Assembly (NCBI GenBank): GCA_964017155.1
Contig: OZ024860.1
Span: 48,777,583 to 48,841,582, forward strand
Length of the DNA stretch: 64,000 bases
From: Oasisia sp. SBJ-2009
Taxonomy: Eukaryota; Annelida; Polychaeta; Sabellida; Siboglinidae
Reading direction: 5' to 3'
The translations under genes were made by a program, and so were the position numbers. The notes under the pieces were generated by a model. That model searched no databases, had not been told where the DNA came from, and saw only the letters and a list, made by a program, of their open reading frames with translations. Numbering within the stretch: position 1 is the stretch's first letter; the number at the start of each line of letters is the position of its first letter. This document shows positions 22,938 through 61,602 of the stretch, piece by piece.

Positions 22938-22959
22938 TCACACCTGCCACAGCAGCAGG
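22891..22959. repeat. ARHGEF17: 23-bp triplication over the ARHGEF17 stop codon
   Basis: Units start at 22891, 22914 and 22937 (GTSACACCTGTCCYGGGTCA type). The third unit contains the last codons and TGA of ARHGEF17 (CAG GTG TGA on the minus strand); the other two lie in its 3' UTR. Confidence 0.8.

Positions 22960-61602: not shown

Follow-up and report, generated by a model that had tools for sequence, protein, structure and literature searches.

The closest described counterparts of the structures reported here are the mirages of amphioxus, tandem repeats that lie across intron-exon boundaries. Two reports describe them, for globin genes, with Adh3 cited as a further example and with unit lengths of 10-72 and 150-160 bp (PMC3087553), and for lancelet PGBD5, in which 60- and 108-bp repeats abut splice sites and where Adh and troponin C are also mentioned (PMC3902484). 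Between them, the mirage genes named comprise Adh3, the globins BflGb6 and BflGb9, PGBD5 and troponin C, the repeats occur at both exon ends, and many copies keep the AG or GT signals (PMC3087553, PMC3902484). Duplication within a gene has also been proposed as a source of introns, potato RdRp being an example of gain by tandem genomic duplication (PMC4974935); there the duplication makes a new intron, whereas the arrays considered here lie in introns between conserved exons. Among the matches listed from the open-access literature, no recognised case of splice-junction tandem repeats outside amphioxus was found and, as far as that literature was searched, such minisatellites were previously known only from amphioxus.

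The window, meaning the whole stretch of 64,000 nucleotides that was analysed, corresponds to C7:48777583-48841582 in a 764-Mb assembly. It contains an ARHGEF17-like gene on the minus strand (22938..61602; the strand is the same for all features of this gene given below), with 20 exons that extend from the DH domain to the stop codon. The exon model was derived from six lophotrochozoan homologues by tblastn, with splice sites taken from the sequence, and the 20 joined exons form one open frame whose sole stop is at the end; such a frame would show only that the true splice sites have been kept. In the ARHGEF17 tree (34 rows) the window gene grouped with molluscs, Lingula and a flatworm (support 100/99), apart from chordates, echinoderms and arthropods, and in the CTSO tree (25 rows) the CTSO gene of the window joined that of the tubeworm Lamellibrachia (support 100/99). 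A cephalochordate affinity, which the mirage literature had led us to consider, was ruled out by both trees, which make an annelid close to the siboglinids the most likely source of the DNA. The window also carries, at 34243-34562, 320 bp of uninterrupted (ATCA)80, a perfect microsatellite that looks recently expanded.

Four acceptors of ARHGEF17 are met by repeats that stop at, within or just before the AG, and the large arrays and two-copy duplications that the initial annotation had described at them are all present. The first array, 18 units of 62 bp at 26937..28052, has as its last base the G of the exon 26936 acceptor, i.e. the last base of the intron. All 17 upstream units end in CTTGCAA, and the exon-side unit ends in CTTGCAG. 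Base composition predicts 44 AG dinucleotides in its 1116 bp, but only two occur, and one of these is the acceptor itself. One substitution would account equally for a G that was lost after copying and for a G that was never copied. The second large array, about 65 units of 23 bp at 36953..38443, ends at the acceptor of exon 36952, with TTGTAT in 62 of 62 counted upstream units and TTGTAG in the exon-side unit. Since this array holds 84 AG dinucleotides (109 expected), AG avoidance is not general; a loss of AG from all arrays was thus ruled out, and only the 62-bp array is nearly AG-free. The two smaller cases are a pair of 32/33-bp copies at 35758..35822, which end at the acceptor AG of exon 35757 with GAG in the upstream copy and CAG at the exon, and a pair of 24-bp copies at 51134..51183, which end at position -3 of the exon 51133 acceptor, before the AG. 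An origin of the units of such abutting arrays from exon sequence was considered, and comparison by eye gave nothing convincing.

The proximity of array ends to junctions was assessed with a set of minisatellites called by TRF (units of at least 10 bp, overlapping rows merged, microsatellites excluded). Of 17 separate minisatellites in the 19 ARHGEF17 introns, four (with ends at 26938, 35761, 36954 and 51137) come within 1 to 3 bases of an acceptor junction, and the next nearest array in this gene is 141 bases away. Random placement of each array in its own intron gave 0.08 expected acceptor contacts (3 bases or fewer), with four contacts reached in 1 of 200,000 trials; permutation within introns had been named beforehand as the way to refute the pattern, and the pattern withstood it. 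When arrays were placed in any ARHGEF17 intron, 0.04 contacts were expected and no trial reached four. These P values are post hoc because ARHGEF17 was picked for its pattern, which leaves room for the explanation that chance and selective reading of a repeat-rich genome, in a gene chosen for its striking look, produced the association. A blunter test, scoring any local copy of the 60-mer around a junction (score 18 or more), is in keeping with that explanation: local copies were found at the stop region, at 5 of the 20 acceptors and at 2 of the 19 donors, as well as at 75 of 600 random intronic positions. Since about 10% of intron positions carry such copies, the acceptors did not differ significantly from the random positions (P 0.095). 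The end-distance result within the gene argues against chance, and tandem duplications in ARHGEF17 preferentially have an edge at a splice junction, most of all at acceptors.

At two other junctions the copies run across the boundary. Exon 40505 has two 32-bp units at 40488..40571 that span its acceptor, each unit joining the end of the intron, with its AG, to the first ~17 bases of the exon. Ten further copies of this acceptor-plus-exon unit form an array at 41007..41319, of which eight keep TTACAG and two have ACAA. A large array had initially been placed at this acceptor itself; units do adjoin and cross the junction there, but only two of them, and the large array lies 501 bp upstream. With a matrix trained on the acceptors of ARHGEF17 itself, four of the eight TTACAG copies score 10.6 and four 8.9, and the true site 11.0. 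The locus is nested, with 40489-40571 matching 41263-41341 and 40878-41004 matching 41337-41468, and a larger duplication has thus also occurred. The exon-side copies are parted from the main array by an insertion of ~306 bp (40572..40877) which, being present in only one copy of the larger duplication, entered after it. By eye this insertion is putatively tRNA-SINE-like; ARAGORN found no tRNA genes in the window. At exon 29402, the end of the exon and its donor region recur downstream in three further, degraded copies (29030..29402; copies at 29341, 29220 and 29108) that are mixed with GTCC repeats, in agreement with the initial report of a donor copied three times. Likewise borne out was a duplication at the stop codon, which is covered by 2.3 copies of a 23-bp unit (22894..22946). 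In addition, a 12-bp array called by TRF (36171..36208) begins 11 bases inside the exon 36220 donor.

The initial annotation had also held that two other genes of the window, CTSO and RPS3, show nothing comparable. This agrees with our data as far as they go: none of the five arrays in or beside these genes has an end less than 100 bp from a junction, a number of arrays too small to prove absence, and the junctions are tblastn ends and hence approximate. An intron of RPS3 holds a 675-aa LINE reverse-transcriptase open frame (window 15107-17134, plus strand), whose closest protein cluster has 709 members and matches with 95% identity over 97%. Near the left edge of the window, an open frame contains 7.8 copies of a 33-bp repeat (2866-3121, plus strand) that translate into a repeated peptide of the SPRHSTSPRPN type.

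Beyond these genes, 344 kb of contiguous DNA were scanned, of which 294 kb were readable, the window included and ~0.23 Mb lying outside it; minisatellite rows make up 9.5% of the 294 kb, again with the window included. A simple exon finder, for which the window served as training set, predicted 29 exons outside it. On visual inspection 18 were kept, including one more exon of ARHGEF17, and the other 11 were dropped because they were of low complexity, had a long open frame or resembled repeats. At a score of 17 or more, copies were found at one acceptor and five donors of the 18 kept exons. Two of the donor hits are clear (cat 195576 and 197135); at 212745 about a dozen intron bases precede the array, 319852 is ambiguous, and at 307545 the predicted exon itself lies within an array. 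Three junctions outside the window clearly show the pattern, one acceptor in a DNAJA3-like gene and two donors in L018. For these genes, as for a GALNT-like one, we presume the names (DNAJA3-like, GALNT-like, LRR/EF-hand) from resemblance together with Pfam matches. In the GALNT-like exon, a near-perfect 31-bp array begins inside the apparent exon end (L030:5650-6066; cat 319650-320066, minus strand).

In the DNAJA3-like gene, which has a DnaJ central-domain match of E 0.008, below the Pfam cut-off, a 21-bp array ends between the A and the G of the acceptor at L011:5321, and 21 of 21 counted upstream units have an A where the acceptor has its G. Further DnaJ-type open frames were recognised by eye in L033. 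L018 encodes exons matching LRR_6 (E 2.5e-11) and, just under the cut-off, EF-hand_6 (E 2.2e-5), and these LRR and EF-hand exons probably belong to one gene. At the EF-hand exon, six 55-bp units, each with the exon end and the donor, occupy L018:1180-1842 (cat 195576, minus strand); GTGAGC is kept in four of the five downstream copies, and the array is among the clearest boundary-spanning ones seen. The second donor (cat 197135) has a 47-bp copy downstream.

Taken alone, the exons outside the window give a weak formal test, with 1 of 88 arrays contacting a predicted acceptor against 0.083 expected (P 0.08). Nevertheless, an array end between A and G recurs in a second gene and donor copies recur in a third, which together with the permutation result makes an accident of selection an unlikely account. 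Acceptors with local copies number 5 of 20 in ARHGEF17 and 1 of 18 among the predicted outside exons (Fisher P 0.18), and therefore nothing marks ARHGEF17 as special. The initial interpretation is partly supported: its view of splice sites as points of duplication holds for the acceptor contacts (four against 0.08), but the description as a pattern of ARHGEF17 alone was too narrow, given that two other genes behave alike.

The state of the copied signals bears on a second suggestion of the initial annotation, that repeats were selected for redundancy, so that spare splice signals protect the gene. The TTACAG retained in eight of ten upstream copies at 40505 and the GTGAGC retained in four of five L018 donor copies could be read in this way. 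Against it, across the three large abutting acceptor arrays (26936, 36952 and DNAJA3-like) the acceptor G is missing from 100 of 100 counted upstream units and is present in the exon-side unit alone, and where the signal is kept, use of a copy would shift the frame, as the units are 32 bp at 40505 and 55 bp in L018. We therefore regard selection for redundancy as very improbable and set the suggestion aside.

Insertions of other elements were seen within two of the arrays. Besides the ~306-bp insertion at 40505, an element of ~2.35 kb lies in the splice-site array of the DNAJA3-like gene, to the left of the window on C7. This element has inverted ends (CTAGGCTAGCGCTG/CAGCGCTAGCCTAG), is flanked on each side by GCAGT and divides the 21-bp units into L011:5323-5761 and a second block at L011:8118-8487; the array is therefore probably older than the insertion. 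Introner elements are dispersed repeats that create introns and whose edges meet splice sites, and the edges of the repeats described here likewise meet splice sites. The two insertions and the LINE open frame of the window would be compatible with dispersed elements, either introners or satellite-bearing transposons, having landed at the junctions. Unlike dispersed introners, however, the units carry the sequence of the host junction itself, including the acceptor or exon bases of the host gene, and the insertions break up the arrays and do not carry them, so that this origin appears quite improbable.

Replication slippage, one of the causes first proposed, finds modest support in the composition of intron ends. 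The last 36 intron bases contain 22.2 distinct triplets compared with 23.9 in other intron DNA outside arrays (P 0.005; P 0.02 without the five arrayed acceptors), and short direct repeats number 2.8 in the last 36 bases compared with 1.4 in other intron DNA (P 0.001, arrayed acceptors included). Such low-complexity, repeat-rich ends would suit slippage at pyrimidine/GT tracts. Our preferred reading, which we hold to be probable though by no means assured, is that the arrays arose as duplications by slippage in repetitive intron ends, and that selection against additional functional splice sites filtered them. The duplications would start from low-complexity pyrimidine/GT tracts where introns end; those creating a second, equally good site beside the exon would mostly be lost owing to the risk of mis-splicing; those that break off within the AG, or in which the copies lose their G, would be neutral; and surviving units would then multiply and homogenise within the intron. 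Because selection opposes change at the exon edge, this edge would act as a wall, and no positive function of the arrays would be required. Slippage with selection would thus explain why the AGs are single, why the exon forms a wall and why some repeats contain later insertions. Counter to the selection filter, decoy splice sites persist at 40505 and at the L018 donor, and the pile-up of ends in the last few intron bases, hence the clustering at the AG, is only partly explained.

This pile-up speaks for a mechanistic hot spot at the 3' end of introns, for instance through RNA-templated copying of excised intron tails or breakage at the meeting point of transcription and splicing. The five intron-side arrays that abut acceptors (four in ARHGEF17, one DNAJA3-like) all have TRF ends at -2 to -4; were ends spread evenly over the last 30 bases, the odds of all five falling in the last four would be roughly 4e-5, a rough and post hoc figure. 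A hot spot of this kind is nonetheless rather unlikely in our estimation, since the units at 40505, 29402 and the L018 donors include exon bases and most units lack the final G expected of an intron RNA copy. Similarly doubtful is the wider proposition that 3' intron ends are a mutational hot spot throughout the genome, where an intron-end-sensing process, RNA-templated or coupled to transcription or splicing, would generate arrays that have one edge anchored at the AG from the outset, in place of random slippage and selection.

Compared with the mirages of amphioxus, the units at the 40505 acceptor, the 29402 donor and the L018 donor at cat 195576 likewise span the exon-intron boundary, and the unit lengths observed here (21, 23, 24, 32, 33, 55 and 62 bp) fall within the reported range. 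In contrast, the units at 26936, 36952, 35757, 51133 and the DNAJA3-like acceptor stop at the boundary, and the main acceptor arrays, in stopping at the AG, leave it single. Splice signals are kept in 8 of 10 copies at 40505 and 4 of 5 at the L018 donor; in the three large acceptor arrays, none of the 100 upstream units counted keeps them. Further differences are the annelid-side phylum, copy numbers of up to ~65 and the involvement of several junctions in one gene. From their sequence arrangement, the boundary-crossing arrays would fit the mirage description, and the AG-sparing arrays, as their units stop at the boundary, are classed as a variant of it only.

Three genes with splice-junction minisatellites in an annelid-like genome suggest that such structures recur in minisatellite-rich animal genomes. 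These repeats copy or crowd splice signals whose correct reading the cell still depends on. Natural arrays with as many as ~65 pyrimidine/GT tracts ahead of a single AG, together with those that place decoy acceptors or donors next to the true site, offer tests both of how the spliceosome chooses its site and of models in which such repeats seed new introns.
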